The position numbers were made by a program, and so were the translations under genes. Of a stretch of DNA of 64,000 nucleotides, positions 3,788 through 20,528 are shown in pieces (the stretch's first letter is position 1; every line of letters starts with the position of its first letter). Where the stretch lies: the NCBI RefSeq assembly GCF_900129495.1, contig NZ_FQVX01000001.1, forward strand, positions 620,001-684,000, given 5' to 3'. Below the pieces are notes generated by a model that was given only the letters and a program-made list of their open reading frames with translations, was not told the DNA's origin and ran no database searches. Source of the DNA: Geodermatophilus nigrescens (GTDB taxonomy: Bacteria > Actinomycetota > Actinomycetes > Mycobacteriales > Geodermatophilaceae).

Positions 3788-5023
3788 GTGTACGCCAGCG
3801 TGCGTGACGTCCCGGCGACCGGGACGCCCGGCACCGGCAGCAGGCGGGTCGGCGGGACGGTCCTCGCCCTCGGCACGGTCAGCCTGCTCACCGACGTCTC
3901 CTCGGAGATGGTCGCGGCGGTCCTGCCGGTCTACCTGACGCTGACCCTGGGGCTCTCACCGCTCGCCTTCGGCGTCGTCGACGGCCTGTACCAGGGGACG
4001 TCGGTGCTCGTGCGGCTCGGCGCCGCGGCGGCGGCCGACCGGTGGCGCCGGCCCAAGGCCACCGCCGTGCTGGGCTACGGCCTGTCGGCGCTGTGCAAGC
4101 TCGGGTTGGTCGTGGCCTCCGGCGCGGCGGCCATCGGCGCCGTCCTCGCCGCCGACCGCACCGGCAAGGGCCTGCGCACCGCGCCGCGGGACGCGCTCAT
4201 CGCCGCCGCCTCCCCGCCGGGGGGCCTGGGCCGGGCGTTCGGCGTGCACCGCGCGATGGACACCACCGGCGCCCTGCTCGGCCCGCTCGTCGCCGTCGCC
4301 CTCCTGCTGTGGCTGCCCGGCGACTACGACAGCCTCTTCCTGGTCAGCGCGGTCTTCGCCGTCCTCGGCCTGGCCGTGCTGGTCACCTTCGTCCCCGAGC
4401 GCACCCGGGTGGCCGGGGCGCCGCCGGTCCGCTGGCGGCAGGTGACCGCCCTGCTCGCCGACCGGCCCGTGCGGCGGGTGGCCGCGGCCGGTGCCGTCCT
4501 CGGCCTGCTCACCGTCACGGACGGTTTCGCCTACCTGCTGCTGCGCGAGCGCGGCGCGGTCGAGGCGGCGCTGTTCCCGCTGCTGTTCGTCGGCACCGCC
4601 GGGGTGTACCTGCTGCTCGCCGTCCCGCTGGGCCGGCTGGCCGACCGCGTCGGCCGCGTGCCGGTGCTCCTCGCCGGACACGCCGCGCTGCTGCCGGCCT
4701 ACGGGGGCCTGCTGCTGCTCCCGGACGCCGGGCCGTGGCTGGTCGCGCTCGTCGTCGGGGCGCTCGGCGTGTACTACGCGGCCACCGACGGAGTGCTCGC
4801 CGCGCTGGCCGCGGAGCTGTCGCCGGAGGACGTGCGGACGTCGGGCATCGCGCTGGTGCAGACGGCGGTCGCGGCCGGCCGGTCGGCGTCGGCGGTGCTC
4901 TTCGGCCTGCTGTGGACCGCCTCGGGGCAGTGGCCGGCGCTGGCCGCGTTCGCCGTCGCCCTCGCCGTCGCGCTGCCGGCCGTCCGGTGGTCGCTGCGCG
5001 GCCTGCAGCGGGTGGCGGCGTGA
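3788..5023 (+). CDS. MFS transporter
   Basis: 411 residues with about twelve predicted membrane helices. After a short cytoplasmic tail it reads LTDVSSEMVAAVLPVYLT, and between helices 4 and 5 it carries DRTGKGLRTAPRDALI, a hallmark of one MFS_1 subgroup; GRLADRVGRVPVL later is the second-half counterpart of the conserved loop 2-3 motif. GTG start at 3788 follows a GGGAGGAGG RBS. The stop overlaps the next gene by four bases (GTGA), linking it with a membrane-anchored propeller protein. Substrate unknown; it may export something for the polysaccharide locus or simply be a resident neighbour. Confidence 0.85.
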   Translation: MYASVRDVPATGTPGTGSRRVGGTVLALGTVSLLTDVSSEMVAAVLPVYLTLTLGLSPLAFGVVDGLYQGTSVLVRLGAAAAADRWRRPKATAVLGYGLSALCKLGLVVASGAAAIGAVLAADRTGKGLRTAPRDALIAAASPPGGLGRAFGVHRAMDTTGALLGPLVAVALLLWLPGDYDSLFLVSAVFAVLGLAVLVTFVPERTRVAGAPPVRWRQVTALLADRPVRRVAAAGAVLGLLTVTDGFAYLLLRERGAVEAALFPLLFVGTAGVYLLLAVPLGRLADRVGRVPVLLAGHAALLPAYGGLLLLPDAGPWLVALVVGALGVYYAATDGVLAALAAELSPEDVRTSGIALVQTAVAAGRSASAVLFGLLWTASGQWPALAAFAVALAVALPAVRWSLRGLQRVAA

Positions 5024-6084
5024 CCGGCGACCGGGGCCGCGCCGCGCCCGCCCGCCGCCGGCTGCTCGTGTTCCTCGCCGTCGTGGCGCTCTGCGTCGGC
5101 GGCACGGTGACCTACCTCCTCGTGCAGCGGCAGGGCGACGTCGAGGCCGCGGCCGCGGCGGCGGCGGACGAGGCCGGGCGCGAGCGGCTCGCCGTCGCGG
5201 ACGTCCAGGCCGTGCCGCACGTCGTCGTCCGCAGCACCGAGCCGGGCCCGTCGTCGGGCTCCGTCGCGCTGGTGCCGCTCGACGACCCCGCGGGGCCCCG
5301 GGCGGTCCTCGACCTCGCGTGCGACCGGGTGGCCGCCGCGCGCGGGGCCGCCGTCTGCCTGCAGACGCTGCCCGGGATCGTGCCCGCGTACCGCGCCGTC
5401 TTCCTCGACGGCGAGTACCGGGAGACCGGCTCGGCCGACCTCCCCGGCCTCCCCAGCCGGGCCCGGGTCTCCGCGGAGGGCAGCTACGCGGCGACGACGG
5501 TCTTCGTCACCGGGCACGCCTACACCGACGCCCAGTTCTCCACGGAGACGGTGGTGACCGACCTCCGCGACGGCGACCCGACGCCGCTCGGGAACCTGGA
5601 GTCCTGGACGGCGACGTGGGCCGACGGCACCCGGGTGGACGCCGAGGACCGCAACTTCTGGGGCGTGTCCTTCGTCGGGGACGGGCCGGGGTTCTACGCG
5701 ACGCTCGGCACGGGCGGTGCCCGCCACCTCGTCCGGGGCGACGCCGACGAGCGGACGCTGACCGTGGTCGCCGAGGACGGCGCCTGCCCCTCCGTGTCGC
5801 CGGACGGGTCGACGGTCGTCATGAAGGAGACCGACCCCGTCTCCCGGGCGGCCGTCCTGACCGCCTACGACGTGAGCACAGGCGAGCGGACCCGGATGGC
5901 CGAGGGGCGCGCCGTCGACGACCAGGTGGCCTGGTGGGGCGACCGCGTCCTGTACGGCGTCGGCAGCGGTCTGGCGGACAGCGGGGCAGCGGACGTGTGG
6001 GTGGCGGATCCCCTGGGAGGCGGACAGCCGGCCATCCTGGTCCCGGACGCCTCGTCACCGTCCGTCGTCCTCCCCGGGAACTGA
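5020..6084 (+). CDS. membrane-anchored beta-propeller-like protein
   Basis: 354 residues: Arg-rich cytoplasmic start, one membrane segment at about 13-32, an Ala-rich stalk, then an extracytoplasmic domain with repeated four-strand patterns such as CPSVSPDGSTVVMKETD, similar to TolB/WD40-type propellers. No catalytic motif is visible. It shares a GTGA overlap with the MFS gene, so the two products are probably made together; it could be a sensor or accessory subunit of that transporter. No named family is recognised. Confidence 0.65.
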   Translation: MTGDRGRAAPARRRLLVFLAVVALCVGGTVTYLLVQRQGDVEAAAAAAADEAGRERLAVADVQAVPHVVVRSTEPGPSSGSVALVPLDDPAGPRAVLDLACDRVAAARGAAVCLQTLPGIVPAYRAVFLDGEYRETGSADLPGLPSRARVSAEGSYAATTVFVTGHAYTDAQFSTETVVTDLRDGDPTPLGNLESWTATWADGTRVDAEDRNFWGVSFVGDGPGFYATLGTGGARHLVRGDADERTLTVVAEDGACPSVSPDGSTVVMKETDPVSRAAVLTAYDVSTGERTRMAEGRAVDDQVAWWGDRVLYGVGSGLADSGAADVWVADPLGGGQPAILVPDASSPSVVLPGN

Positions 6085-6318: not shown

Positions 6319-7833
6319 GTGCTCCACGACTCCCGCGAGCAGGACCGCTCCGGTGCCGCCGGCGCCGGCCTCCGGATCCACGCCGACCGCGTGCGGCGGC
6401 AGGAGCAGGACGACAGCGGCGGGCGCCGGCCGGCTCCCGGCTGGCTGCGCCGGTACCGGCGGGCAACCGTCGTCTCCGACGTGCTCGCCGCCGCGCTCGC
6501 CGGGGCGACCGCGCAGGTGCTGCGCTTCGGCACGGAGGTCGTCCCCTCGACGACGCTCCTGGTCACCGGGGTCTTCCCCGTGGTCTGGGTGGCCGTGGTG
6601 ATGCTGGCGGGCGGGCACCGTGCCGCGCACCTCGGCACCGGCACGGAGGAGTACCGGGCGGTGATCCGGGCCGGCGTGGGCTGCCTGGCGCTCATCGCGG
6701 TCGTCTCCTACGCCTTCGCGCTGCAGCTCTCCCGCGGGCTGGTCGTCGTGGCCCTGCCGGGCGCGGTCGTCCTCAGCGCGGTCGGCCGGCACGTGCTGCG
6801 ACGGGTCGTGCACCGGCTGAGGGCCGGTGGCCGCTGCCTGCGCACCGTCGTCGCCGTCGGCCGGTCGAACGCCGTCGCCGACCTCGTGCGGCAGCTCGAC
6901 CACGACAGCCACTGCGGCATGGCCGTCGTCGCGGCCTGCGTCCCCGACCGCTCGCCGACCGGTGCGCTGGTCGACACCGGGGTCCCTGTCGAGGGGGACC
7001 TGCGGTCGGCGGCCGAGGTCGCCCGCCGGCTCGACGTCGACGCCGTCGCGGTCACCAGCTCCAGCGAGACGGCGGCGGTCTACCTCCGGCGTCTGTCCTG
7101 GGAGCTCGAGGGCAGCGGCATCGAGCTGCTCGTGGCGCCCGGCCTCATGGAGGTCGCGGGCCCGCGGATGCACGTGCGCCCCTTCATCGGACTGCCTCTC
7201 GTGCACGTCGAGGAGCCGGTGTTCACCGGCCCCAAACGGTTGGTCAAGGAGCTGATCGACCGCTCGGGCGCCGCCGTCGCCCTCGTCCTGGTGCTGCCCG
7301 TGCTGCTCGCGGCGGCGGTCGCCATCCGGCTGGACAGCCCCGGTCCGGTGCTGTTCCGCCAGGTGCGGGTCGGCCGGGACGGGCGCACCTTCCCGATGCT
7401 GAAGTTCCGCACGATGGTGGCCGACGCCGAGCAGCGCCGAGGCGAGCTGGCCGACCGCAACCGCTGCGGCGACGGGCCGATGTTCAAGGTCGCCGACGAC
7501 CCGCGGATCACCCGGGTCGGGCGGGTGCTGCGCCGCCACTCGATCGACGAGCTGCCGCAGTTCGTCGACGTGCTGCTGGGGCACATGTCGCTGGTCGGGC
7601 CGCGGCCCCCGCTGCCGGACGAGGTGGCCCTCTACGACGACTCGGTCGCCCGGCGGCTGCTGGTGAAGCCGGGGCTGACCGGGCTGTGGCAGGTGTCGGG
7701 CCGCAGCGACCTCTCGTGGGACGAGGCCGTGCGGCTGGACCTGCGCTACGTCGAGAACTGGTCCCTGGCACTGGACCTGCAGATCATCTGGAAGACCTTC
7801 CGGGCCGTGGCCCGGCCGCTGGGGGCGTACTGA
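6319..7833 (+). CDS. exopolysaccharide priming glycosyl-1-phosphate transferase (WbaP/CpsE-like)
   Basis: 504 residues. It starts repeat-unit synthesis by moving a sugar-1-phosphate from a nucleotide sugar to undecaprenyl phosphate. Four or so N-terminal membrane helices (about 45-150) are followed by a Rossmann-like domain (about 165-280) and the bacterial sugar transferase domain (about 305-504). The signature runs are all present: LFRQVRVGRDGRTFPMLKFR, then RTMVADAE, the block LRRHSIDELPQF, LVGPRPPLP, and LLVKPGLTGLWQVSGRSDL. The GTG at 6319 follows AGACAGGGGGCGG. The stop overlaps the ATG of the giant DUF4082 gene (TGATG), so the two are translationally coupled. This is the best marker that the region is a Wzx/Wzy polysaccharide locus. 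Confidence 0.95.
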   Translation: MLHDSREQDRSGAAGAGLRIHADRVRRQEQDDSGGRRPAPGWLRRYRRATVVSDVLAAALAGATAQVLRFGTEVVPSTTLLVTGVFPVVWVAVVMLAGGHRAAHLGTGTEEYRAVIRAGVGCLALIAVVSYAFALQLSRGLVVVALPGAVVLSAVGRHVLRRVVHRLRAGGRCLRTVVAVGRSNAVADLVRQLDHDSHCGMAVVAACVPDRSPTGALVDTGVPVEGDLRSAAEVARRLDVDAVAVTSSSETAAVYLRRLSWELEGSGIELLVAPGLMEVAGPRMHVRPFIGLPLVHVEEPVFTGPKRLVKELIDRSGAAVALVLVLPVLLAAAVAIRLDSPGPVLFRQVRVGRDGRTFPMLKFRTMVADAEQRRGELADRNRCGDGPMFKVADDPRITRVGRVLRRHSIDELPQFVDVLLGHMSLVGPRPPLPDEVALYDDSVARRLLVKPGLTGLWQVSGRSDLSWDEAVRLDLRYVENWSLALDLQIIWKTFRAVARPLGAY

Positions 7834-10800
7834 TGGATCGATCGCGCGCTCGTTCCGTCCCCTCCCGGCTCGGGCTGGTCCTGGTCGCCCTCGTCCTCGC
7901 CACGGTCGGCCTGGCCACCGTGCCGACCCGCGCCCTCGCCGCCGACCCCTGCGCGCCGGTCGTCAACCCGGTGGTCTGCGAGAACAGCAAGCCCGGTTCG
8001 GGCGACTGGGTGGTCACCCCGGACAGCAGCATCGAGGGATTCACCACCGACATCAGCGCCGACCTCGGGGACCGCGTCGAGTTCAAGGTCCGCACGGACT
8101 CGTCCGACTACCGCATCGACGTCTACCGGTTGGGCTGGTACGGCGGGGCGGGGGGCCGCCTCGTCTCCTCGGTGCGCCCGAGCGCCACGCTCCCGCAACG
8201 GCAGCCGGACTGCCTGCGCGAGGCGGCCACCGGGATGGTCGACTGCGGCAACTGGGCGGTCTCGGCGAGCTGGACGGTGCCCACGACCGCGGTCTCGGGT
8301 GTCCACGTCGCGGTGCTGCACCGCAACGACACCGGCGCGGAGAACCAGGTCACCTTCGTCGTCCGCGACGACGCCAGCCGCTCGGACGTCGTCTTCCAGA
8401 CGTCGGACACCACGTGGGCCGCCTACAACGCCTGGGGCGGGGCCAGCACCTACTACGGCGACGGCCCCGGAGGCGCCGGCCGTGCCTACGCGGTCAGCTA
8501 CAACCGCCCGCTGACCGCGGGCGAGTCCGCCGGCCAGGTGGCCTACGCCGAGTACCCGATGATCCGGTTCCTCGAGCGCAACGGCTACGACGTCTCCTAC
8601 ATCGCCGGGGTCGACACCGACCGCCGCGGCGACCTCCTCACCAACCACCGGCTGTTCCTGTCGGTCGGCCACGACGAGTACTGGACGGGTCCGCAGCGGG
8701 CCGCGGTCGAGCGGGCCAAGGCCGCCGGCGTCCACCTGGCGTTCTTCAGCGGCAACGAGATGTGGTGGCGGTTCCGCTGGGGCCCGTCGATCGACGGCTC
8801 GGGCACCGGCCACCGCTCGTTGATCGTCTACAAGTCCAGCCTCGACGGCAGGCAGACCGACCCGTCCGGCGACTGGACCGGCACCTGGCGCGACCCGCGG
8901 TTCCGGCAGCCGGGGGTCACGCCGGAGAACGCGCTCATCGGCCAGCAGTTCTCGGTGAACGGCAACGGCGCCGGGAACCGTGCGGACTCCCTCGCCGTCC
9001 CCGCCGAGTACGGGCAGGCGCGGTTGTGGCGCAACACCGCCGTGGCCGGCCAGGCCGCCGGCTCCACCCACACCTTCGGACCCGGCACCCTGGGGTACGA
9101 GTGGGACTCCGACGTCGACAACGGCTTCCGGCCGGCGGGGATCGCCCACCTGTCCCACACGGTGGTCGACATCGCCGAGCCCGACGTCCTGCAGGACGAC
9201 TTCGGGGTGCGTTACGCCCCGGGCAGGGCGACGCACAACCTCACCCTCTACCGCGACCAGGCGAGCGGGGCGCTCGTCTTCGGCGCGGGCACCGTGCAGT
9301 GGTCGTGGGGCCTGGACGACGAGCGCGCCGGCGGCGGCCCGGCCGTCGCGAACACCCCGATGCGGCAGGCCACGGTCAACCTCTTCGCCGACATGGGCGT
9401 CCAGCCGGCCACGCTGCAGGCCGACCTGCAGGCGGCCGCCGCCAGCACCGACACGACTCCTCCGCAGGTCGAGATCACCGCGCCCGCGGCGGGGGACACC
9501 GTCAGCGTGGGATCCCCCGTCACCGTCCGCGGCACCGCCACGGACGCGGGCGGCGTCGTCTCCGGGGTCGAGGTGTCCGTCGACGGCGGCGCCACCTGGC
9601 ACCCGGCGCAGGGCCGCGGCGAGTGGTCCTACACGTACACGCCCACGGTGTCCGGGCCGTTGTCCGTCCGGGCACGGGCGGTGGACGACAGCGCCCGGCT
9701 GTCCGCGCCGGTCGCACTGGACAGCTCCGTCGGTCAGCGGACCTGCCCCTGCTCGATCTGGCCGGACTCCGCGGTCCCGGGGACGCCGGACTCGGGCGAC
9801 GCGACGCCGATCGAGGTCGGCGTGCGCTGGCAGTCCCAGGTGGCCGGGTACGTCACCGGGATCCGCTTCTACAAGGGCGTCGGGAACACGGGGACCCACA
9901 CGGGCACCCTCTGGACCGACGACGGGCGGCCCCTGGCCAGCGGCACCTTCGCCGGCGAGACCGCCACCGGCTGGCAGACGCTCGCGCTCAAGACACCGGT
10001 GGCCGTGACCGCCGGGACGACCTACGTCGTCTCCTACTTCGCCCCGAACGGCCACTACGCCGCCGACGCCGGCTACTTCTCCGCGGCGCCGACCACCAAC
10101 GAGCCGCTGACCGCCCTGCGCGACGGCGCCGCCGGACCGAACGGCGTGTACCGGACGGACGGACCCGGATTCCCGGAGCGCACCTTCCAGGGCGCCAACT
10201 ACTGGGTCGACGTCGTCTTCCAGGCCACCGCGCCCCCGGACACCACCGCACCCGGCGTGGCCCCAGGGAGCCCGATCGACGGCAGCAGCAGCGTGCCGCA
10301 GACGTCCGCCGTCACCGCGGTGTTCGACGAGCCGGTCGAGGCGACCAGCATCCGCATGGGCGTCACCGGTGCCGCGGGTTCCCCCGTCGCGGGCACCACC
10401 ACCTACGACCCGGGGACGCGCACGGCCACGTTCCGTCCCACGGAGCAGCTGGCGGCCGCGACGCGGTTCACGGTGACCGTCTCGGCCGCCACGGACCCAG
10501 CCGGCAACCCCATGGCCGCCCCGGTGAGCTGGTCCTTCACGACCGCCCGGCCACCGGCCACACCGGGCGTGTGCCCCTGCAGCGTCTGGGACGACTCGGC
10601 CGTCCCGGCAGTGGTCAGCGTGGCCGACCCCGCGGCCGTCGAGCTCGGCATGCGGTTCCGCCCCGACACGGACGGGACCGTGACCGGCGTCCGGTTCTAC
10701 AAGGGTCCGCAGAACACCGGGACGCACGTCGGCACGTTGTGGTCGGCGGACGGCCGGGAGCTCGCCCGCGCGACCTTCGGCGCCGAGTCGGCCACCGGCT

Positions 10801-13800
10801 GGCAGGAGGTCGCGTTCGACCGGCCCGTCGAGGTCACGGCCGGGACCACCTACGTCGTCTCGTACCACACGGACGCCGGCTACTACTCCGCCACGGCCGG
10901 CGGCCTCTCGCAGGCCGTCGTCCGCAGTCCGCTCACCGCACTGGCCGACGGCGAGGACGGTCCCAACGGCGTGTACGTCTACGGCGCCAGGGCCTTCCCC
11001 ACGCGGCCCGGCTCCGCCAACTACTGGGTCGACGTCGTCTTCCGCCCGGCGCCGGACACCCTGCCGCCGACGGTCACCGGGACGGCACCCGGCGCGGGCA
11101 GCACGAGCGTCCCCGTCGACGTCGTCGTGTCCGCCACCTTCAGCGAGCAGGTGGACCCGACGTCGGTCACCGTGGCCGTGTCCTCCGGCGCGGGGGCGGC
11201 CGTCCCCGGGACGACGGCCTACGACCCGGAGACCCGCACGGTCCGGTTCTCGCCGTCGGAGCCCCTGACGGCCGCCACCGGCTACAGCGCGACGGTGTCC
11301 GGGGTGCGGGACACCTCGGGCAACGCCATGTCCGCGCCACGGACGTGGTCGTTCACCACCTCGGGTGTCGGGGCCTGTCCCTGCACGCTCTTCAGCGACG
11401 CGGTGCCCGGCAACCCGGCGACCGACGACGGCCGCTCGGTGGAACTCGGCACCCGGCTGCGCTTCGACGTGGACGGCTGGGTGACCGGCGTCCGCTTCTA
11501 CAAGGGCACGGGCAACACCGGCACCCACACCGGCACGCTGTGGAGCGCCGACGGTCAGGTCCTCGCGCGTGGCACCTTCGACGCCGAGACCGCATCGGGC
11601 TGGCAGCAGCTGCGCTTCGCCAACCCGGTCGAGGTGACGGCCGGCACCACCTACGTCGTCTCCTACCACGCACCGTCCGGGCACTACGCCGCCGACGTCG
11701 GTGCCTTCACCGACCGCGGCCGGGACAACGCGCCGGTGCACGGTCTGCGGGACGGCGTGGACGGTCCCAACGGGGTCTACGCGTACGGGCCGGTCCCGGC
11801 CTTCCCGACGAGCTCGCACCGTGGCTCGAACTACTGGGTCGACGCCGTGTTCGAGACCGTCGCGCCCGCCGACAACACGCCCCCGTCGGTGACCGCGACC
11901 TCGCCTGGGGACGGCTGGTCCAGCGTGCCGGTCACCTCGCCGGTGCAGTTCACCTTCGACGAGGCGGTCCAGGCCGGCACGGCCACCGTCCGGGTCAGCA
12001 CGGCCCAGGGCGGTCCCGTGACCGGGACGGTGAGCGGCTTCGGTTCCCGCACGGTCGTGTTCACGCCCGACGCCCCGTTCCCACCGGGGACCGCCGTGAC
12101 CGCGACGGTCGAGGGGACGCGGGACCTGAGCGGCAACGCCATGGCGGCGCCCGTGACGACCTCGTTCACGACCGCGGCCGGCCAGACCGCCGGGTGTCCC
12201 TGCACGCTGTTCCCCGACAGCGCCGTTCCGGCGGTCGTGGCCGACGGCGACAGCGAGCCGATCGAACTGGGCGTGCGGTTCAGCGTCGACACCCCGGGGT
12301 CCGTGACCGGCGTGCGGTTCTACAAGGGCCCGGGCAACACGGGCACGCACACCGGCAGCCTGTGGGGCCCGGACGGCGGGCGGCTGGCACAGGCCACCTT
12401 CATCGGTGAGACGAGTGGCGGCTGGCAGCAGGTGCTCTTCGAGACGCCGGTGGAGGTCTCGCCGGGGGTGACCTACACGGCGAGCTACCACACCGACACC
12501 GGGCACTACAGCCACACGCGCGGGGCGTTCGAGTTCACCGGCGTGGACCGTGGGCCGCTGCACGCGCCGCGCGCGACCGCGACGGAGCCGAACGGCGTGT
12601 ACGTCTACGGGGCCTCCGCATGGCCGACCCGGGGCTCGAACACCGACTACGGCGTCGACGTCGTCTTCGTGACGGACGGGGCCGGCACCCCGTCGCCGCC
12701 ACCGGGCGCGGACACGACGCCGCCGCAGACGGTGCGGACCACCCCGGCCGACGGGGACCAGGGCGTGAGCAGGACGGCGCCGGTGAGTGCGGCGTTCTCC
12801 GAGCCGCTGGCGGCGTCGTCGGTCCGCTTCACCCTGACCGGGCCTGCAGGGGCCGTGCCCGTGATCGCCGGCCTGGACGCCACGGGCACGACGGTGACCG
12901 CCACCCCGACGGCGGCGCTGGAGCCCGGGACGACGTACACCGCGAGCCTCGTCGTGGCCGACACGGCGGGCAACGCCGTGCCGGCGCCGGTGACCTGGCG
13001 CTACACGACCGGGGCGGACGGGACGCCGGCCGTGGGCGAGTGCCCGTGCACGCTGTTCGCGGACGGCTCCGCCCCCGCGGCCGTCGCGGACGGTGACTCC
13101 GCCGCCGTCGAACTGGGTGTGCGGTTCTCGACCGACACGGGCGGTGTCGTCACCGGCGTCCGCTTCCACAAGGCAGCGGGCAACACCGGCACGCACACCG
13201 GCAGCCTGTGGGCGCCGGACGGGAGGCGGCTGGCGCAGGCCACCTTCGTGGACGAGACCGCGAGCGGCTGGCAGACGGTCCTGTTCGACACACCCGTGGA
13301 GGTCTCGCCGGGGGTGACGTACACGGCCAGCTACCACACCGACACCGGGCACTACGGCTACACGCGCGGTGCGTTCGAGTTCGCCGGCGTCGACCGGGGG
13401 CCCCTGCACGCGCCGCAGGCGACCGCCACGGAGCCCAACGGCGTCTACGTCTACGGGGCCTCGGCGTGGCCGACCCGCGGCTCGAACACCGACTACGGCG
13501 TCGACGTCGTCTTCGTGCCACAGACGGCGCCCGTGGTCACGGCAGCGGCCGCCCCCACGGCGGAGGCCGTGCCCGTCCCCACCACGGAGGCGGCACCGCC
13601 GGTCGCCGGTCCGGCCCCGGCGGAGTCCGCGCCGACGACGGGAGAGGCGCCGTCGTCCTCGGCTCCGTCGTCCTCGGCTCCGTCGTCCTCGGCTCCGTCG
13701 TCCTCGGCTCCGTCGTCCTCGGCTCCGTCGTCCTCGGCTCCGTCGTCCTCGGCACCGGAGACCTCGGCTCCGTCGTCCTCGGCACCGGAGACCTCGGCAC

Positions 13801-14759
13801 CGTCGAACACCGCACCGGAGACCTCGGCTCCGGAGACCTCTGCACCCTCGAGCACCGCGCCGGAGACCTCGGCACCGGGGACCTCCGCACCGTCGAGCAC
13901 GGCACCGTCGAGCACGGCACCGTCGAGCACGGCACCGCCGACCCAGACGCCGTCGTCGACACCGCCCGCCGGGGAGGCGCCGGCTCCCGCGCCGGTCTCG
14001 CTGTACACCGAGGCGGACGTGCCGCCCGAGCGGGCGGTCGACGACACGGCGCCGGCCGAGCTCGGCACGCGGTTCACCACCGCGGCCGACGTCTGGGTGA
14101 CCGCGCTGCGCGTCGCCACGGGCGCCGGCGCGACCGGGACGCCCGTCGGCAGCCTCTGGACCGCCGACGGGCAGCGCCTGGCCTCGGTACGGTTCGCGGA
14201 CCCGACGGAGCCCGGCTGGCAGACCGCCGTCCTCGGGCAGCCGGTCGCGCTGCGGGCCGGCGAGGAGTACGTCGTCAGCCACACCGCGCCGGAGGGCCGG
14301 TGGACGGAGACGGCCGGCGGGGCGGCCACCGACCGCACCAGCGGGCCGCTCACCGCGCCGGCGGATCGGGCGTCCGCGCCCAACGGCGTGCGGGGGCCCG
14401 CCGGGGCATTCCCCGCCGAGCCGGCGGACGCGGCGGCCTTCTGGGTGGACGTCGTCGTCAGCACGGTCGAGCCGCCCGGCGCGGCGACCGACACCGCGCG
14501 GCCCGCGGTGACCGCCACCGGCCCGCAGGCGACGGCGCTGTTCAGCGAGCCGGTCGAGGACGTGCGGATGACCCTCGCCGGGCCGGACGGGACCGAGGTC
14601 CCCGCCGCGCTCGGATGGGACCCGCGCACCCTCGTCGCCCGGCTCGAGCCGGCGCAGGCACTCGCGCCGGGGACCACCTGGACGGTGACGGTGAGTGCCG
14701 CCCGGGATGCGGCCGGCAACACCCTCGCCGGTCCCGTGACTTGGACGTTCACCACCTGA
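7833..14759 (+). CDS. giant secreted protein: dimethylformamidase-beta-like domain plus six DUF4082 modules
   Basis: 2308 residues. A signal peptide (1-31, cleavage near ALAA) is followed by a domain of about 500 residues resembling the C-terminal domain of N,N-dimethylformamidase beta subunits (VYRLGWYGG, TWAAYNAWGG, VGHDEYWTGPQR, FFSGNEMWWRFRW). An Ig-like domain (about 540-635) comes next. Then DUF4082 modules start near 638, 914, 1182, 1455 and 1737, most opening CPC and carrying TGVRFYKG and YWVDVVF; the first four are each followed by an SbsA-type Ig domain (FSEPV...GNAMAAPVTWSFTT pattern). A Pro/Ser/Thr/Glu linker (1897-2053) leads to a divergent sixth module and a last Ig domain. There is no LPxTG signal or C-terminal membrane helix. 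Probably an extracellular matrix or glycan-binding protein made together with the polymer; catalytic activity is unproven. Confidence 0.85.
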   Translation: MDRSRARSVPSRLGLVLVALVLATVGLATVPTRALAADPCAPVVNPVVCENSKPGSGDWVVTPDSSIEGFTTDISADLGDRVEFKVRTDSSDYRIDVYRLGWYGGAGGRLVSSVRPSATLPQRQPDCLREAATGMVDCGNWAVSASWTVPTTAVSGVHVAVLHRNDTGAENQVTFVVRDDASRSDVVFQTSDTTWAAYNAWGGASTYYGDGPGGAGRAYAVSYNRPLTAGESAGQVAYAEYPMIRFLERNGYDVSYIAGVDTDRRGDLLTNHRLFLSVGHDEYWTGPQRAAVERAKAAGVHLAFFSGNEMWWRFRWGPSIDGSGTGHRSLIVYKSSLDGRQTDPSGDWTGTWRDPRFRQPGVTPENALIGQQFSVNGNGAGNRADSLAVPAEYGQARLWRNTAVAGQAAGSTHTFGPGTLGYEWDSDVDNGFRPAGIAHLSHTVVDIAEPDVLQDDFGVRYAPGRATHNLTLYRDQASGALVFGAGTVQWSWGLDDERAGGGPAVANTPMRQATVNLFADMGVQPATLQADLQAAAASTDTTPPQVEITAPAAGDTVSVGSPVTVRGTATDAGGVVSGVEVSVDGGATWHPAQGRGEWSYTYTPTVSGPLSVRARAVDDSARLSAPVALDSSVGQRTCPCSIWPDSAVPGTPDSGDATPIEVGVRWQSQVAGYVTGIRFYKGVGNTGTHTGTLWTDDGRPLASGTFAGETATGWQTLALKTPVAVTAGTTYVVSYFAPNGHYAADAGYFSAAPTTNEPLTALRDGAAGPNGVYRTDGPGFPERTFQGANYWVDVVFQATAPPDTTAPGVAPGSPIDGSSSVPQTSAVTAVFDEPVEATSIRMGVTGAAGSPVAGTTTYDPGTRTATFRPTEQLAAATRFTVTVSAATDPAGNPMAAPVSWSFTTARPPATPGVCPCSVWDDSAVPAVVSVADPAAVELGMRFRPDTDGTVTGVRFYKGPQNTGTHVGTLWSADGRELARATFGAESATGWQEVAFDRPVEVTAGTTYVVSYHTDAGYYSATAGGLSQAVVRSPLTALADGEDGPNGVYVYGARAFPTRPGSANYWVDVVFRPAPDTLPPTVTGTAPGAGSTSVPVDVVVSATFSEQVDPTSVTVAVSSGAGAAVPGTTAYDPETRTVRFSPSEPLTAATGYSATVSGVRDTSGNAMSAPRTWSFTTSGVGACPCTLFSDAVPGNPATDDGRSVELGTRLRFDVDGWVTGVRFYKGTGNTGTHTGTLWSADGQVLARGTFDAETASGWQQLRFANPVEVTAGTTYVVSYHAPSGHYAADVGAFTDRGRDNAPVHGLRDGVDGPNGVYAYGPVPAFPTSSHRGSNYWVDAVFETVAPADNTPPSVTATSPGDGWSSVPVTSPVQFTFDEAVQAGTATVRVSTAQGGPVTGTVSGFGSRTVVFTPDAPFPPGTAVTATVEGTRDLSGNAMAAPVTTSFTTAAGQTAGCPCTLFPDSAVPAVVADGDSEPIELGVRFSVDTPGSVTGVRFYKGPGNTGTHTGSLWGPDGGRLAQATFIGETSGGWQQVLFETPVEVSPGVTYTASYHTDTGHYSHTRGAFEFTGVDRGPLHAPRATATEPNGVYVYGASAWPTRGSNTDYGVDVVFVTDGAGTPSPPPGADTTPPQTVRTTPADGDQGVSRTAPVSAAFSEPLAASSVRFTLTGPAGAVPVIAGLDATGTTVTATPTAALEPGTTYTASLVVADTAGNAVPAPVTWRYTTGADGTPAVGECPCTLFADGSAPAAVADGDSAAVELGVRFSTDTGGVVTGVRFHKAAGNTGTHTGSLWAPDGRRLAQATFVDETASGWQTVLFDTPVEVSPGVTYTASYHTDTGHYGYTRGAFEFAGVDRGPLHAPQATATEPNGVYVYGASAWPTRGSNTDYGVDVVFVPQTAPVVTAAAAPTAEAVPVPTTEAAPPVAGPAPAESAPTTGEAPSSSAPSSSAPSSSAPSSSAPSSSAPSSSAPSSSAPETSAPSSSAPETSAPSNTAPETSAPETSAPSSTAPETSAPGTSAPSSTAPSSTAPSSTAPPTQTPSSTPPAGEAPAPAPVSLYTEADVPPERAVDDTAPAELGTRFTTAADVWVTALRVATGAGATGTPVGSLWTADGQRLASVRFADPTEPGWQTAVLGQPVALRAGEEYVVSHTAPEGRWTETAGGAATDRTSGPLTAPADRASAPNGVRGPAGAFPAEPADAAAFWVDVVVSTVEPPGAATDTARPAVTATGPQATALFSEPVEDVRMTLAGPDGTEVPAALGWDPRTLVARLEPAQALAPGTTWTVTVSAARDAAGNTLAGPVTWTFTT
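12195..13518 (+). repeat. near-identical DUF4082 units spaced 846 bp apart
   Basis: Unit A begins at 12195 (Cys codon of CPCTLF) and unit B at 13041. Long stretches match almost base for base, for example 12595-12671 against 13441-13518. Unit B lacks the Ig-like half and runs straight into the linker. This points to a recent in-frame duplication, and a site where assemblies may collapse. Confidence 0.75.
13651..13935 (+). repeat. 15-bp tandem repeat encoding a Pro/Ser/Ala linker
   Basis: Nineteen units in phase. The first six (13651-13740) are identical copies of CGTCGTCCTCGGCTC; the others vary (CGGAGACCTCGGCAC, CGTCGAGCACGGCAC and similar). They encode PSSSA, PETSA and PSSTA five-residue repeats, a flexible wall-spanning type of linker. 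Length variation by slippage would stay in frame. Confidence 0.9.
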
Positions 14760-14788
14760 TCGGGCGGACCTGGAGAGGCGCGACGAGA

Positions 14789-14805
14789 GGCCCCCCGCGG
14801 GGGCC
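14789..14805 (+). terminator. short GC hairpin between giant protein and sugar operon
   Basis: GGCCCCC-CGC-GGGGGCC forms a 7-bp stem with a 3-base loop in the 106-base gap. There is no U-tract, so it could be a weak terminator, an attenuator or an RNA-stability element. Confidence 0.35.
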
Positions 14806-14865
14806 GGGAGCACACCAGACTGGCGCGGCGCGCGACCGGTCGAGGAACGACACGGGGAGAGAGCA

Positions 14866-15957
14866 GTGAGCGAAGCCATCGGCACCGCACCCGTCGGGAT
14901 CGCCGTCGTCGGCGCCGGCTACTGGGGGCCCAACCTGGTGCGCAACGCCCAGGCGACCCCGGGCCTGCGCCTGGAGTACCTCTGCGACCTCGACGTCGCC
15001 CGGGCCCGCGCGGTGCTCGGCGGCTACAGCACGGTCCGGGTCACCGACGACCTCGGCGCGGTGCTGGCCGACCCGGCGGTGGGGGCGGTCGCCGTCGCCA
15101 CCCCGGCCGCCACCCACGCCGGCATCGCGATGGCGGCGCTGTCGGCGGGCAAACACGTGCTGGTCGAGAAGCCGCTCGCGGCCAGCCTCGAGGACGGCGC
15201 GAAGCTGGTGCGCACCGCCGAGGACGCCGGGCTGGTCCTCATGCTGGACCACACCTACTGCTACACGCCCGCTGTCTCGCACCTGCGGGACCTCGTCCGC
15301 GGCGGCGAGCTGGGCACGCTGCAGTACCTGGACTCGGTGCGGATCAACCTGGGCCTGGTGCAGGCCGACGTCGACGTCGTCTGGGACCTCGCGCCGCACG
15401 ACCTGTCGATCCTCGACTCGCTGCTGCCCGACGGCGTCACACCGGTGAGCGTGGCCGCGCACGGCGCCGACCCGCTCGGCTGCGGGCAGGTCTGCGTGGC
15501 CCACCTGTCGATCGAGCTGAGCTCCGGCGCGCTGGCGCACGTGCACGTCAACTGGCTGTCGCCGACCAAGGTGCGCACCACGATCGTCGGCGGCTCGCGC
15601 CGCACCGTCGTCTGGGACGACCTCAACCCCACGCAGCGGGTGGCGGTCTACGACCGCTCGATCGAGACCCGCGACCCCGCCGAGCTGGGCGTCGAGGCCC
15701 GCAACCAGACGCGGGTGTCCTACCGGATCGGGGACATGGTCGCCCCGGCCCTCCCCGAGAGAGAGGCACTGCGCACGATGATGGGCGAGTTCGCGGCGGC
15801 GATCACCGAGGGGCGGCCGCCGCTCACCGACGGGCGGTCGGGCCTGCGGGTGCTGGCGATGCTCGAGGCGGCCAGCGCGAGCCTGCGCGCCGGCGGCGTC
15901 GCGGTCCCGGTCGAGCAGGTCGCCACCGAGACGAGCACCGTGGCGGTGCCGGCGTGA
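14866..15957 (+). CDS. Gfo/Idh/MocA-family sugar dehydrogenase
   Basis: 363 residues. N-terminal Rossmann domain with VVGAGYWGPNLVRN (G16, G18, G21), the EKP motif at 101-103 (HVLVEKPLA), then the alpha/beta C-terminal domain containing DLAPHDLSILDSLL. The family oxidises sugar hydroxyls with NAD; next to aminotransferases and acyltransferases it resembles WbpB/WlbA, which oxidises C3 of UDP-GlcNAc-derived sugars. GTG start at 14866 with a GGGGAGAGAG RBS. Its stop overlaps the epimerase start (GTGA). First gene of a tightly packed nucleotide-sugar operon that runs to 23284. The exact substrate is inferred from neighbours only. Confidence 0.88.
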   Translation: MSEAIGTAPVGIAVVGAGYWGPNLVRNAQATPGLRLEYLCDLDVARARAVLGGYSTVRVTDDLGAVLADPAVGAVAVATPAATHAGIAMAALSAGKHVLVEKPLAASLEDGAKLVRTAEDAGLVLMLDHTYCYTPAVSHLRDLVRGGELGTLQYLDSVRINLGLVQADVDVVWDLAPHDLSILDSLLPDGVTPVSVAAHGADPLGCGQVCVAHLSIELSSGALAHVHVNWLSPTKVRTTIVGGSRRTVVWDDLNPTQRVAVYDRSIETRDPAELGVEARNQTRVSYRIGDMVAPALPEREALRTMMGEFAAAITEGRPPLTDGRSGLRVLAMLEAASASLRAGGVAVPVEQVATETSTVAVPA

Positions 15958-16952
15958 GCGCCGCGGTGGAGCTCGCCAGCAGCCGGGTGCTGGTCACCGG
16001 CGGCGCGGGCACGATCGGCTCGCACGTCGTCGACCAGCTCGTCGACGCGGGCGCCGCCGAGGTCGTGGTCCTCGACAACCTCGTGCGCGGGCGGCTGGCC
16101 AACCTCGACCGGGCGCTCCGGCGCGGCGGCGACGTCGTCCGGGTGGTCGAGGGCGACATCCGCGACGTCGCCCTGGTGCACGAGCTGACCCGCGGGAGGG
16201 ACCTGGTCTTCCACCTGGCCGCGCTGCGCATCACCCAGTGCGCCGAGCAGCCCCGGCTGGCGCTGGAGTCGCTCGTCGACGGCACGTTCACGGTCCTCGA
16301 GGCGGCCGCCGAGCACGGCGTCGCGAAGGTGGTCGCCTCCTCGTCGGCGTCGGTCTACGGCCTCGCGGAGGAGTTCCCCACCACCGAGCGGCACCACCCG
16401 TACAACAACGACACCTTCTACGGGGCGGCGAAGGCCTTCAACGAGGGCATGCTGCGCAGCTTCAAGGCCATGTACGACCTCGACTCGGTCGCGCTGCGCT
16501 ACTTCAACGTCTACGGCCCGCGGATGGACGTCTGGGGCGTCTACACCGAGGTGCTCATCCGCTGGATGGAGCGCATCGACGCCGGCGAGCCGCCGCTCAT
16601 CCTCGGTGACGGCCTGCAGACCATGGACTTCGTCCACGTCGAGGACATCGCCCGCGCGAACCTGCTGGCCGCGCAGGCCGACGTCACCGACACCGTGTTC
16701 AACATCGCCTCGGGCACCGAGACCAGCCTGCGCGAGCTCGCCGACCGGCTGCTCGCGGCCATGGGGTCGGACCTGGCGCCCGTGCACGGCGAGGCGCGGA
16801 AGGTCAATGCGGTGACCCGCCGGCTGGCCGACGTCAGCGCGGCCCGCGAGCAGCTGGGCTGGACCGCCCGGATCGGTCTCGACGAGGGCCTGCGCGGGCT
16901 CGTCGAGTGGTGGCGCGCGGAGCAGCGGCTCGGGCAGGAGGCGCCGGCGTGA
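15954..16952 (+). CDS. NAD-dependent epimerase/dehydratase (extended SDR)
   Basis: 332 residues of a UDP-glucose 4-epimerase-like short-chain dehydrogenase. The cofactor motif VLVTGGAGTIGSH is at 12-24, the Ser of the SSSASVYG strand follows, and YxxxK is at 156-160 (YGAAK). FNVYGPRM and DFVHVEDIARA are also typical. It probably epimerises a nucleotide sugar or forms a keto intermediate for the aminotransferases downstream. The Tyr-Lys arrangement fits a C4-epimerase better than a 4,6-dehydratase, for which the usual Asp-Glu-Lys neighbours were not seen. Overlaps both flanking genes by four bases. Confidence 0.88.
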   Translation: MSAAVELASSRVLVTGGAGTIGSHVVDQLVDAGAAEVVVLDNLVRGRLANLDRALRRGGDVVRVVEGDIRDVALVHELTRGRDLVFHLAALRITQCAEQPRLALESLVDGTFTVLEAAAEHGVAKVVASSSASVYGLAEEFPTTERHHPYNNDTFYGAAKAFNEGMLRSFKAMYDLDSVALRYFNVYGPRMDVWGVYTEVLIRWMERIDAGEPPLILGDGLQTMDFVHVEDIARANLLAAQADVTDTVFNIASGTETSLRELADRLLAAMGSDLAPVHGEARKVNAVTRRLADVSAAREQLGWTARIGLDEGLRGLVEWWRAEQRLGQEAPA

Positions 16953-18106
16953 CCGCTCTCGACGCGCCGGCCCTCCCGGTCATCCCGGTCATGAAGCCGT
17001 GGCTGGGGGAGGAGGAGGCCGCGGCCGCCGCGGAGGCCGTCGCCTCCGGCTGGGTCGCGCAGGGCCCGCGGGTGCGCGCCTTCGAGGAGGCGTTCGCCCG
17101 CCGGGTGGGTGCGGCCGAGGCGGTCGCCGTCTCCAACTGCACGACGGCGCTGCACCTGGCGCTGCACCTGCTCGGCGTGGGCCCGGGTGACGACGTCGTC
17201 GTCCCGTCGTTCTCCTTCATCGCCACCGCCAACGCCGTCCGGCACGTCGGCGCGCAGCCGGTGTTCGCCGACGTCGACCTGGTCACGGGCAACCTCACGC
17301 CCGGCACGGTCGAGGCGGCGCTGACCCCGCGTACCCGGGCGGTGGTCGTGGTCCACCAGGCCGGGGTCCCCGCAGACACCGCCGCGCTCGGGGCGTTGCT
17401 CGAGCCCCGCGGCATCCCCGTCGTGGAGGACGCCGCGTGCGCCATCGGCAGCACCCTGTTCGGCCGCCCGGTCGGCGCCGGGGCGCAGCTGGCGGCGTTC
17501 TCCTTCCACCCGCGCAAGCTCGTCACCACCGGCGAGGGCGGGATGCTCGTGACCCCCTCGGCCGACGTCGCCGCCCGCGCCCGCCGGCTGCGCGAGCACG
17601 GCATGAGCGTCAGCGCCGCTGACCGGCACGCCAGCGGCAGCGTCGCCCCCGAGCAGTACCTGGAGCCCGGCTTCAACTTCCGCATGACCGACGTCCAGGC
17701 CGCGATCGGGCTGGTGCAGCTGACCCGGCTCGACGCGATGGTCGCGCGCCGCCGGGAGCTCGCCGCCCGCTACCGCGCGCTGCTCGCCGACCTGCCGGGC
17801 CTGCGGCTGGTGGACGACCCGTCGTGGGGGACGACGAACGTGCAGTCCTGCTGGCTGCTGCTGCCCGAGGACGCCCCCGTCGGCCGCGACGCCGTGCTGG
17901 CGCGGATGAGCGCGGCCGGGGTGTCGGGCCGCCGGGGGATCATGGCCGCCCACCTCGAGCCCGCCTACGCCGACCGGCCGCGGGTGTCGCTGCCGGCCAC
18001 CGAGCGGCTCACCGCCGACAGCCTGGTGCTGCCGCTGTTCCACCAGATGACCGAGGGCGAGCAGGACCGCGTCGTCGACGCCCTGCGCGCGGCGCTGGTG
18101 CCGTGA
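16949..18106 (+). CDS. DegT/DnrJ/EryC1/StrS sugar aminotransferase (first copy)
   Basis: 385 residues, PLP-dependent. The opening PVMKPWLGEEEAAAAAEAV, SNCTTALHLALHLLG, VVEDAACAIGS and the PLP-lysine segment SFHPRKLVTTGEGGM (K190) define the family, which transaminates keto-sugar nucleotides using Glu or Gln. Immediately downstream is a PglD/NeuD-type acetyltransferase, the usual partner, as in PglE/PglD bacillosamine synthesis. GTG at 16949 overlaps the epimerase stop and its own stop overlaps the acetyltransferase start. Sugar position (C3 or C4) is not decided by sequence alone. Confidence 0.92.
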   Translation: MTALDAPALPVIPVMKPWLGEEEAAAAAEAVASGWVAQGPRVRAFEEAFARRVGAAEAVAVSNCTTALHLALHLLGVGPGDDVVVPSFSFIATANAVRHVGAQPVFADVDLVTGNLTPGTVEAALTPRTRAVVVVHQAGVPADTAALGALLEPRGIPVVEDAACAIGSTLFGRPVGAGAQLAAFSFHPRKLVTTGEGGMLVTPSADVAARARRLREHGMSVSAADRHASGSVAPEQYLEPGFNFRMTDVQAAIGLVQLTRLDAMVARRRELAARYRALLADLPGLRLVDDPSWGTTNVQSCWLLLPEDAPVGRDAVLARMSAAGVSGRRGIMAAHLEPAYADRPRVSLPATERLTADSLVLPLFHQMTEGEQDRVVDALRAALVP

Positions 18107-18798
18107 GCGGCGCCCCGCGGCCGTTGGTCGTCCTCGGCGCCGGCGGCTCCGCGCGCGAGGTCGTGCAGCTGCTGCGCGCCTGCCCGGACGCGGCGGGGGA
18201 GCCGGTCGCCGTCACCGGCCTGCTCGACGACGACCCGGCGCGGGCGGGCACCTCCGTCGACGGCGTCCCGGTCCTCGGGCCGACCGCCGCAGCCGCGGAG
18301 CACGCCGGCCGCGGGGCGCTGCTGCTCGCCTGCGTCGGCTCGCCCCGCGACCCCGGCTCCCGGGCGCGGCTCACCGCGCGGCTCGGCCTGCCCGACGACG
18401 CCTGGGCCACCGTCGTCCACCCGCTGGCCGCCGTCTCGCCGGACAGCACGGTCGGGGCCGGCAGCGTGCTGCACGCCGGCGTCGTGCTCACCGTGGCGGT
18501 CACCGTCGGCCGCCACGTGTACGCGATGCCGCACGTCGTGCTCACCCACGACGACGAGGTCGCCGACGCGGCCACCTTCGGCGCGGGCGTGCGGCTGGCC
18601 GGCGGCGTCAGCGTCGGCGCGGCCGCCTACCTCGGCTCCGGCGCCCTGGTCCGCGAGCACCGGCGGATCGGCGCCGGCGCGCTCGTCGGCATGGGCAGCG
18701 TCGTCGTCCGCGACGTGCCGCCCGGCCAGACCTGGGCCGGCAACCCGGCCCGCCCCCTCACCCCGTCCCCGGCAGCGCTCGTGGAGGCCTCCCTGTGA
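18103..18798 (+). CDS. PglD/NeuD-type sugar O/N-acyltransferase
   Basis: 231 residues. The N-terminal Rossmann-like PglD_N domain opens VVLGAGGSAREVVQLL and includes TGLLDDDPA; the C-terminal half is a left-handed beta-helix of hexapeptide repeats (TVGAGSVLHAGVVL, RIGAGALVGMGSVV), ending in the NPARPL cap. The likely catalytic His lies in the MPHVVLTHDDEV region. These enzymes acetylate the amino group put on by the neighbouring aminotransferase, using acetyl-CoA. Overlaps by four bases with the genes on both sides. Confidence 0.88.
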   Translation: MSGAPRPLVVLGAGGSAREVVQLLRACPDAAGEPVAVTGLLDDDPARAGTSVDGVPVLGPTAAAAEHAGRGALLLACVGSPRDPGSRARLTARLGLPDDAWATVVHPLAAVSPDSTVGAGSVLHAGVVLTVAVTVGRHVYAMPHVVLTHDDEVADAATFGAGVRLAGGVSVGAAAYLGSGALVREHRRIGAGALVGMGSVVVRDVPPGQTWAGNPARPLTPSPAALVEASL

Positions 18799-19934
18799 CG
18801 ACGCTCGACAGCTCCCTGACCACCGGTCCCGTGCCGCTGGTCGACCTCGGCGTGCAGCGCGACCGCGTCGCCGGCGAGGTGGCCGAGGGGTTCGCCCGCG
18901 TGCTGGCCACCACCGCGTTCATCGGCGGCCCCGACGTCGGCGCCTTCGAGGAGGAGTTCGCGGCGGCCACCGGCCGGGTGCACTGCGTCGGCGTGGGCAA
19001 CGGCACCGACGCGCTGGAGTTCGCGCTGCGCGCCTGCGGCATCGGCGCCGGCGACGGAGTGGCGCTGCCGGCCAACACCTTCGTCGCCAGCGCCGAGGCG
19101 GTGCTGCGCGCCGGGGCGCGGCCGGTGCCGGTCGACGTCGACGACGAGCACCTGCTGCTCGACCCGGCCGCGCTGGAGGCCGTCGCCGGCGAGGTCCGCG
19201 CGGTGCTGCCGGTGCACCTGTTCGGCCAGATGGCGCCGATGGCGGAGATCGCCGACGTGGCCGCCCGGCACGGCCTCGTCGTCGTCGAGGACGCCGCGCA
19301 GGCGCAGGGCGCCACCCACCGCGGCGTGCCGATGGGCGGCTGGGGGAGCGCGGCGGGCACGAGCTTCTACCCCGGCAAGAACCTCGGCGCCTTCGGCGAC
19401 GCGGGCGCGGTGACCACCGACGACGACGGCATCGCCCGCACCGTACGGCTGCTGGCCAACCACGGCAGCGAGGTGAAGTACCAGCACCCGGTGCTCGGCT
19501 TCAACTCCCGCCTGGACACCCTGCAGGCGGTCGTGCTGCGCGCGAAGCTGCGCCGGCTGGCCGAGTGGAACGCCGAGCGCGCCGCCGCCGCGCAGCGCTA
19601 CGCGGTCCTCCTCGACGGTGTGCCCGGGGTCCGCCTGCCCGGGGTGGCGCCCGGCAACGAGCACGTGTGGCACCTCTACGTGGTGCGGGTGCCGGCCCGC
19701 GACGCCGTGCTGGCCGACCTCAACGCCGCGGGCATCGGCGCGGGCGTGCACTACCCCGTGCCGGTGCACCTGACCGGCGCGCTCGCGCCCGGCGGGCACG
19801 CGGCCGGCGACTTCCCGGTGGCCGAGCGGGCGGCGGGGGAGATCCTGTCGCTGCCCATCTATCCCGGCATCACCGCCGCCCAGCAGGAGCGGGTGGCCGC
19901 GGTGCTCACCGGGGCGGTGGCCCGCCGTGGCTGA
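18795..19934 (+). CDS. DegT/DnrJ/EryC1/StrS sugar aminotransferase (second copy)
   Basis: 379 residues. VPLVDLGVQRDRVAGEV, GVGNGTDALEFALRA, VVEDAAQAQGA and the PLP-Lys segment SFYPGKNLGAFGDAGAV (K195) place it in the subgroup of 3-keto-sugar aminotransferases such as WbpE/WlbC or DesV. With the WbpB-like dehydrogenase at 14866 and the WbpD-like acyltransferase just downstream it completes the trio that installs a 3-acetamido group. It differs clearly from the first copy, so the operon has two amination steps rather than a duplicate. Confidence 0.92.
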   Translation: MTTLDSSLTTGPVPLVDLGVQRDRVAGEVAEGFARVLATTAFIGGPDVGAFEEEFAAATGRVHCVGVGNGTDALEFALRACGIGAGDGVALPANTFVASAEAVLRAGARPVPVDVDDEHLLLDPAALEAVAGEVRAVLPVHLFGQMAPMAEIADVAARHGLVVVEDAAQAQGATHRGVPMGGWGSAAGTSFYPGKNLGAFGDAGAVTTDDDGIARTVRLLANHGSEVKYQHPVLGFNSRLDTLQAVVLRAKLRRLAEWNAERAAAAQRYAVLLDGVPGVRLPGVAPGNEHVWHLYVVRVPARDAVLADLNAAGIGAGVHYPVPVHLTGALAPGGHAAGDFPVAERAAGEILSLPIYPGITAAQQERVAAVLTGAVARRG

Positions 19935-20526
19935 CCCGGCCGGCGTGCGGGTGCACCCGCTGGGCCTGTGCGAGAGCGACGACGTGGGGCCCGGCACGCG
20001 GGTGTGGGCGTGGGCGCACGTGATGCCCGGGGCCCGCGTCGGCGCCGACTGCAACGTCTGCGACCACGCCTACGTCGAGGGCGGCGCCCGGCTCGGCGAC
20101 CGGGTCACCGTGAAGAACGGGGTGATGGTCTTCGCCGGCGTCGACATCGGCGACGACGTCTTCCTCGGGCCCGGCGTCGTCTTCACCAACGACCTGCGGC
20201 CCCGCGCCCACGTGAAGAAGGGCGCCGAGTCGCTGCTGCCCACGGTGGTCGAGGACGGCGTCACGCTCGGCGCGGGCGCCGTCGTCGTCTGCGGCACCCG
20301 GATCGGCCGGCACGCCTTCGCCGCCGCCGGGTCGGTGGTCACCCGCGACGTCCCCGCGCACGCCTTCGTCGCCGGCAACCCCGCCCGGGTGCGCGGCTGG
20401 GTCTGCTCCTGCGGCGAGCGCCTCGACGACGACCTGACCTGCCCGGCCTGCGGCCGGGCCCACCACCGCTCGGTCGCCGGCGTGCTCGACGAAGCGGCTC
20501 CCCTCCGGACGGCATCGGGCGCCTGA
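19927..20526 (+). CDS. WbpD/WlbB-like sugar N-acyltransferase with C-terminal zinc ribbon
   Basis: 199 residues. A left-handed beta-helix (roughly 15-150) built from hexapeptide repeats such as TRVWAWAHVMPGARVG and VTVKNGVMVFAGVDIG; the NDLRPRAHVKKG loop is typical of WbbJ/WlbB acyltransferases. After the NPARVRGW cap there is a tail CSCGERLDDDLTCPACG with four Cys arranged as a small zinc ribbon. It would acetylate the 3-amino sugar made by the previous gene. The GTG start at 19927 overlaps the aminotransferase by eight bases. Confidence 0.88.
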   Translation: MADPAGVRVHPLGLCESDDVGPGTRVWAWAHVMPGARVGADCNVCDHAYVEGGARLGDRVTVKNGVMVFAGVDIGDDVFLGPGVVFTNDLRPRAHVKKGAESLLPTVVEDGVTLGAGAVVVCGTRIGRHAFAAAGSVVTRDVPAHAFVAGNPARVRGWVCSCGERLDDDLTCPACGRAHHRSVAGVLDEAAPLRTASGA

Positions 20527-20528
20527 GC

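Follow-up and report, generated by a model that had tools for sequence, protein, structure and literature searches.

Removal of N-acyl groups after export makes some known exopolysaccharides adhesive, as has been shown for the CE18 enzyme Agd3, in which a carbohydrate-binding module aids deacetylation (PMC7229062), and the CE4-type enzymes PgaB/IcaB likewise de-N-acetylate amino-sugar exopolysaccharides (PMC7112194). Here, we describe a gene of Geodermatophilus nigrescens, located in a 64,000-nucleotide stretch of contig NZ_FQVX01000001.1 (positions 620,001 to 684,000; termed the window, with positions counted from its first letter), which encodes a 2,308-amino-acid (aa) protein (termed the giant protein) whose catalytic domain belongs to PF20254 (DMFA2_C), a family unrelated to the CE4 exopolysaccharide de-N-acetylases. 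A polysaccharide deacetylase (NodB-type) domain gave no Pfam match on the giant protein up to an E value of 1. We propose, with confidence evenly balanced, that the giant protein is an exported, multimodular polysaccharide-modifying enzyme, an amidase that would deacylate the 3-/4-acylamino sugars of the polymer made by the neighboring genes, a role akin to that of Agd3 and PgaB/IcaB. What the analysis shows is the anatomy of the protein, the fold predicted for it, the invariance of its active-site residues, and its linkage to amino-sugar genes; secretion, metal, substrate, reaction, module ligand, and physiological effect are deduced from these.

The giant protein combines the following features, as defined by the list of open reading frames (ORFs), translation, Pfam, and family searches:

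7833..14759, + strand: gene for the giant, putatively secreted protein (2,308 aa), with the domain order signal-peptide-like start, immunoglobulin (Ig)-like plus DMFA2_C amidase domain, Big_7, alternating DUF4082 and Big_5, Ser/Thr/Pro linker, DUF4082, Big_5-like end
8112..9317, + strand: DMFA2_C (PF20254) domain, aa 94 to 495 (family search coordinates)
9462..9647, + strand: Big_7 Ig-like domain, aa 544 to 605 (Pfam)
9771..10208, + strand: DUF4082 module 1 (family search)
10599..11030, + strand: DUF4082 module 2 (family search)
11400..11840, + strand: DUF4082 module 3 (family search), for which a structure was modeled
12222..12650, + strand: DUF4082 module 4 (family search)
13071..13496, + strand: DUF4082 module 5 (family search)
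13556..14005, + strand: 15-bp tandem repeats, coding for a Ser/Thr/Pro/Ala-rich linker before the last DUF4082 module (translation and repeat analysis)
14016..14447, + strand: DUF4082 module 6 (family search)

A first-pass annotation made from the sequence had described a 2,308-residue ORF with an N-terminal domain of the dimethylformamidase beta C-terminal type and six DUF4082 modules, and Pfam confirmed both, with 349 bits for PF20254 against a curated cut-off of 27 and six DUF4082 (PF13313) stretches. Its count of a single Ig domain was too low, as five Big_5 stretches and one Big_7 stretch were found. ORF coordinates and codons also bore out that the ATG of the gene (7833 to 7835) overlaps the stop codon of the upstream transferase gene (TGA, 7831 to 7833) as TGATG. 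The annotation had called the protein secreted; its N terminus (MDRSRARSVPSRLGLVLVALVLATVGLATVPTRALA-AD), judged by eye, resembles a Sec signal peptide, and from this start we infer secretion. No second PF20254 or DUF4082 match was found elsewhere in the 4.74-Mb, 99.8%-complete genome (family searches, E value of 0.001). The Pfam scores and the existence of orthologs rule out a chance or artifactual ORF. An antisense open frame of 2,379 aa (7746 to 14885, − strand) covers the gene and is most likely a shadow ORF due to high GC content.

Two solved enzymes inform the reading of the amidase domain: N-acetyl-(R)-beta-phenylalanine acylase (PDB 8huy, 8i59, and 8i5a), the closest solved relative, and the large subunit of N,N-dimethylformamidase (DMFase) (PDB 6lvb; PMC7686228). 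The predicted model of the N-terminal domain adopts the fold common to both by fold comparison, and 425 of 762 residues could be aligned structurally with 6lvb. Profile alignment to 6lvb identified Y198, Y207, and E282 as equivalents of the iron ligands and H280 and N308 as equivalents of the catalytic residues; all five are invariant in 40/40 aligned relatives, as is E423. These observations support the presence of an active-type amidase site. The giant protein differs from the DMFase large subunit by its signal-peptide-like start and by the lack of the ∼260-residue insertion called pentraxin domain II (PMC7686228), profile positions 62 to 107 matching residues 34 to 341 of the 6lvb chain. 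Compared to the acylase, with its 723 to 776 residues, the domain is shorter (502 residues), is fused to a DUF4082/Ig tail, and lies inside a polysaccharide cluster.

We then looked into the genomic linkage of such proteins in a control set of 394 genomes drawn from the class, of which 137 had a PF20254 match (E value of 1e-75 or better) and 41 had a match (E value of 1e-60 or better) to the Gfo/Idh oxidoreductase encoded next to the giant protein. The test used 150 DMFA2 places, taken from a longer set of matches, and 38 Gfo/Idh places (at least 55% identity), four others having been dropped (those of G144 and G484, at 42 to 43% identity, and two partial pieces in G353). A frame length of 1,000 aa stood in for the presence of a modular tail, as the 394 genomes were not searched for DUF4082 itself, and shorter frames served as the internal control. 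Among the matches listed, 29 of the 42 DMFA2 domains in frames of at least 1,000 aa had a Gfo/Idh ortholog no more than 15 kb away, versus none of the 108 in shorter frames (Fisher value of 3e-21, which is too optimistic owing to phylogenetic relatedness), and the linked cases were spread over ten family codes.

Within the window's family (112 genomes), PF20254 was found in 16 genomes, five of which have the full-length form with DUF4082 and a sixth (G073) a form cut by a contig end. The five full-length genes share one neighborhood apart from minor variation, namely, a displaced transferase in G065 and an epimerase that is away from its usual place in G012. The Gfo/Idh ortholog (at least 82% identity) occurs in six family genomes, namely, the same five and G049, the next best match having 43% identity. 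The remaining DMFA2 genes in the family are shorter and distant (27 to 29% identity where tblastn found them), and no transferase was found in the fetched stretch around them. Genes for PF02397 priming transferases are present in 111/112 family genomes, with six copies in the 4.74 Mb of the window's genome, from which ∼2.5% of random places are expected, by arithmetic, within 10 kb of a copy; the 5/5 observed in the family is far above chance. The neighborhood shared within the family and the contrast between long and short frames support the idea in the first-pass annotation that the protein belongs with polysaccharide genes.

The same annotation had made the coupling to the priming transferase a defining feature, which stood locally and was rejected as a general rule. 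The transferase is immediately upstream in 4/5 full-length family cases, and the TGATG overlap is repeated in G046, G055, and G012. A scan of 84,980 species genomes yielded 316 relatives, and among the best 80 of these 316, a PF02397 gene was located within about 10 kb in 28 and directly upstream in 3, by coordinates (L069, L071, and L072, the first two belonging to the window's family); the displaced case within the family is Goekera (G065/L070). Three or more of the five amino-sugar genes were within about 10 kb in 26/80 relatives, in variable order: the giant protein's gene can precede Gfo/Idh, separate the DegT from the hexapeptide genes, or follow these genes. Its more consistent partners are the amino-sugar genes of the Gfo/Idh, DegT, and hexapeptide types. 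On a tree of the amidase domain, built by a quick method from 81 rows, 10 changes were required for the sugar-linked state, compared to a shuffled mean of 22.8; at least 7 of the 10 are forced by well-supported branches, 9 changes remain without the unscorable rows, and gains and losses are not distinguishable.

The genes surrounding the giant protein are as follows:

3788..5023, + strand: MFS transporter, same locus
5020..6084, + strand: gene X, with one N-terminal segment resembling a membrane anchor (by eye), followed by a conserved domain that no Pfam family matches
6319..7833, + strand: priming polyprenyl glycosylphosphotransferase (profile matches PF02397 and TIGR03025), whose stop overlaps the giant protein's ATG
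14866..15957, + strand: Gfo/Idh oxidoreductase (family match), the partner of long DMFA2 proteins in the linkage test
15954..16952, + strand: nucleoside diphosphate-sugar epimerase/dehydratase (family match)
16907..18106, + strand: DegT aminotransferase, ArnB/perosamine-synthase-like, putatively for a 4-amino sugar (solved relatives)
17824..18798, + strand: hexapeptide acyltransferase, VioB/PglB/PerB-like, putatively 4-N-acyl (solved relatives)
18795..19934, + strand: DegT aminotransferase, QdtB/WbpE-like, putatively for a 3-amino sugar (solved relatives)
19927..20526, + strand: hexapeptide acetyltransferase, best solved match 3mqg, a lipopolysaccharide biosynthesis acetyltransferase (PDB match)
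19968..22055, + strand: frame containing a flippase of the Wzx type, whose domain begins near aa 208, the true start being later than the frame start (family match)
24494..25942, + strand: membrane-anchored extracellular protein (comparison of 11 cluster members)
27659..29371, + strand: Wzy-type polymerase/ligase (family match)
29375..30241, + strand: Wzz-like protein, below the curated cut-off (family match)

The priming transferase, Wzx, Wzy, and glycosyltransferases share one cluster, which is a Wzx/Wzy-dependent polysaccharide locus. The ArnB/perosamine-synthase-like DegT and its VioB/PglB/PerB-like partner point to a 4-acylamino sugar, and the QdtB/WbpE-like DegT with its 3mqg-matching partner points to a 3-acylamino sugar; for the amination positions, we assume the functions of the solved DegT relatives, and we take the 3mqg-type enzyme to be a 3-N-acetyltransferase. 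The matches of the Gfo/Idh oxidoreductase were of a general kind only. The protein encoded at 24494 to 25942 has no significant Pfam match; its conserved acidic residues (D189, E190, D192, D249, and E308) suggest an enzyme, and its homologous domain is preceded by an N-terminal DUF4082 in 7 of the 11 cluster members. Just upstream of the locus, on the opposite strand (529 to 2953), lies a pair of Wzy-like (weak match) and Wzz-like genes.

In G049, the transferase (80% identity) is immediately succeeded by Gfo/Idh and the rest of the amino-sugar genes (84 to 93% identity), and MFS, gene X, and the giant protein were not found in 40 kb of this locus (MFS was not searched genome-wide). The TGATG at the transferase stop is retained there (L063, about 17840 to 17930), with less than 100 bp to the next start, an arrangement that resembles a deletion scar. 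Our interpretation is that G049 has lost these genes, the alternative being their gain by the other lineages. Among the 112 family genomes, gene X occurs in exactly the five with the full-length giant protein; elsewhere, in the loci of the 80 relatives, MFS and gene X are on the opposite strand or were not found, and all 12 loci with MFS also contain gene X. The two may, but need not, act as an obligate unit with the giant protein.

We then analyzed the DUF4082 modules. Module 3 was modeled as a beta-sandwich with a mean predicted local distance difference test (pLDDT) score of 95.8, a predicted fold compatible with a ligand-binding face, as the first-pass annotation had suggested looking for. 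The closest known counterparts are the PHR domain (PF08005) and the lectin-like domain of Cwp84 (PF18560), at 7 to 16% identity, and, unlike these, the DUF4082 domains are bacterial tandem modules. With the profiles of these two families, no single stretch of the giant protein passed, PF18560 remaining below its cut-off, and the DUF4082 sequence gave only low-scoring PDB matches, which were to repeats of the WD40 type or other kinds and to one hypothetical protein. In several Actinoplanes-type loci and in L075, a second giant DUF4082/Big_5 protein is encoded directly 3′ of the DMFA2 protein, forming a two-gene unit (L081:13082-17251, L103:12912-17222, L075:14566-18438, and L129:12154-15471); some of these units stand without polysaccharide genes nearby.

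In the mechanism that we propose, the Gfo/Idh, DegT, and hexapeptide genes would supply 3- and 4-acylamino sugars for a polymer assembled and exported by Wzx/Wzy, and the giant protein would leave the cell by the general secretory route. As no wall anchor is obvious by eye, we propose that the DUF4082 modules, spaced by Ig-like rods, hold the enzyme on the polymer. The iron-type amidase would then hydrolyze N-acyl groups, among which N-acetyl is the likeliest, on the 3-acylamino sugars, the 4-acylamino sugars, or both, yielding a partly de-N-acylated polysaccharide that may be more cationic and adhesive. The protein may also cross-link chains.

Several observations weigh against this proposal. 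The 6lvb alignments end before the general base E657. Of the 38 Gfo/Idh orthologs, nine showed no linkage within 15 kb (one lies at 21 kb, some on other contigs), and in G049 the sugar genes persist in the absence of the giant protein, which is therefore accessory and not required for polymer synthesis. A short-form DMFA2 gene of the window's genus (L038, 15505 to 18070) stands near weaker matches to Gfo/Idh (36%), DegT (38%), and hexapeptide (53%) genes, so the contrast between short and long forms is not absolute; the amino-sugar set of L038 is a different, more distant one. Eukaryotic PHR domains bind proteins, so DUF4082 may do so as well. Outside the family, polysaccharide neighbors were found in 39 of the 59 relatives with full 9-kb flanks and not in the other 20 at the thresholds used, and the 20 proteins scanned in 10 of the latter loci had fatty-acid, sulfatase, transport, regulatory, or housekeeping assignments or were further DUF4082 proteins. 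The thresholds were conservative, L095 (Nostoc) and L136 (Methylobacter) being scored as "none" despite weaker sugar-gene or transferase matches, and the relatives without polysaccharide neighbors favor some functional breadth. Priming-transferase-like fragments in two frames lie just upstream of the DMFA2 gene of L136 (8061 to 8322), and sulfatase and sulfatase-modifying-factor genes lie near the Cryobacterium DMFA2/DUF4082 gene (L111, 15100 to 18443). Finally, DMFase requires its small (alpha) subunit (PMC7686228), and the first-pass annotation had noted that apparently none lies near the giant protein, no search with an alpha-subunit sequence having been made. For the acylase, searches returned acylase chains only, and since this is the closest solved relative, a giant protein without an alpha subunit may be normal.

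The unlinked third of the full-flank relatives would also fit a secreted amidase for another substrate, which could be a small N-acyl compound, a peptide, or a surface protein; its cluster position would then reflect cell-surface coregulation. The solved relatives do act on small amides (DMF, and for the acylase as judged by its name). We consider this reading unlikely, as linkage to one specific amino-sugar pathway extends over ten family codes and none of the 108 short forms listed shares it. We give a similarly low probability to a structural protein whose DUF4082/Ig rods cross-link or anchor the polysaccharide, the amidase domain being secondary or a binding domain. The repeats and the Ser/Thr/Pro linker do make up most of the length, and a DUF4082 module forms the C-terminal end of many relatives, where the eye detects no obvious anchor; against this, the five active-site residues are invariant, and many relatives have only one or two modules but retain the enzyme domain, although their loci were fetched by that domain. 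A matrix protein produced in concert with the polysaccharide, as the first-pass annotation had suggested, is less likely than a polymer-modifying enzyme, because the catalytic residues are invariant. Far less probable still is an amidase working in the forming direction, which would place acyl or peptide groups, or the giant protein itself, on amino groups of the polymer: acylases can be reversible and amino sugars are predicted in the polymer, yet the characterized DMFase hydrolyzes, and no donor or linkage motif was recognized, without a systematic search.

To our knowledge, the enzymes for exopolysaccharide N-deacylation all belong to CE4 or CE18. We found no publication tying DUF4082 or DMFase-like domains to polysaccharides in a literature that mostly excluded subscription journals, none on polysaccharides among DMFA2/PF20254/PF13313 publications as judged by title and the start of the abstract, and none on the structure of the Burkholderia beta-phenylalanine acylase. 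A role in the sporangium matrix, considered as Actinoplanes and relatives are among the matches, found no support: two A. missouriensis papers showed no link in their main texts (PMC13390465 and PMC12691653), where "dimethylformamidase" is absent and "DUF" occurs in one passage of the former (DUF4262) and none of the latter.

Extracellular modification of polysaccharides is already known, and there is a realistic chance that the giant protein represents a new enzyme class. More specifically, and with confidence somewhat short of even, it may stand for a new and widespread class of extracellular polysaccharide N-deacylases, in which a multimodule DUF4082 scaffold carries an amidase with the dimethylformamidase fold and a tyrosinate-iron site, directed at polymers rich in 3-/4-acylamino sugars and independent of CE4/CE18 chemistry. 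If so, a different metal-amidase fold would serve exopolysaccharide deacylation across actinobacteria, DMFA2_C would have a role in nature other than that in solvent degradation, and DUF4082 would gain a testable function as a polymer-binding module.
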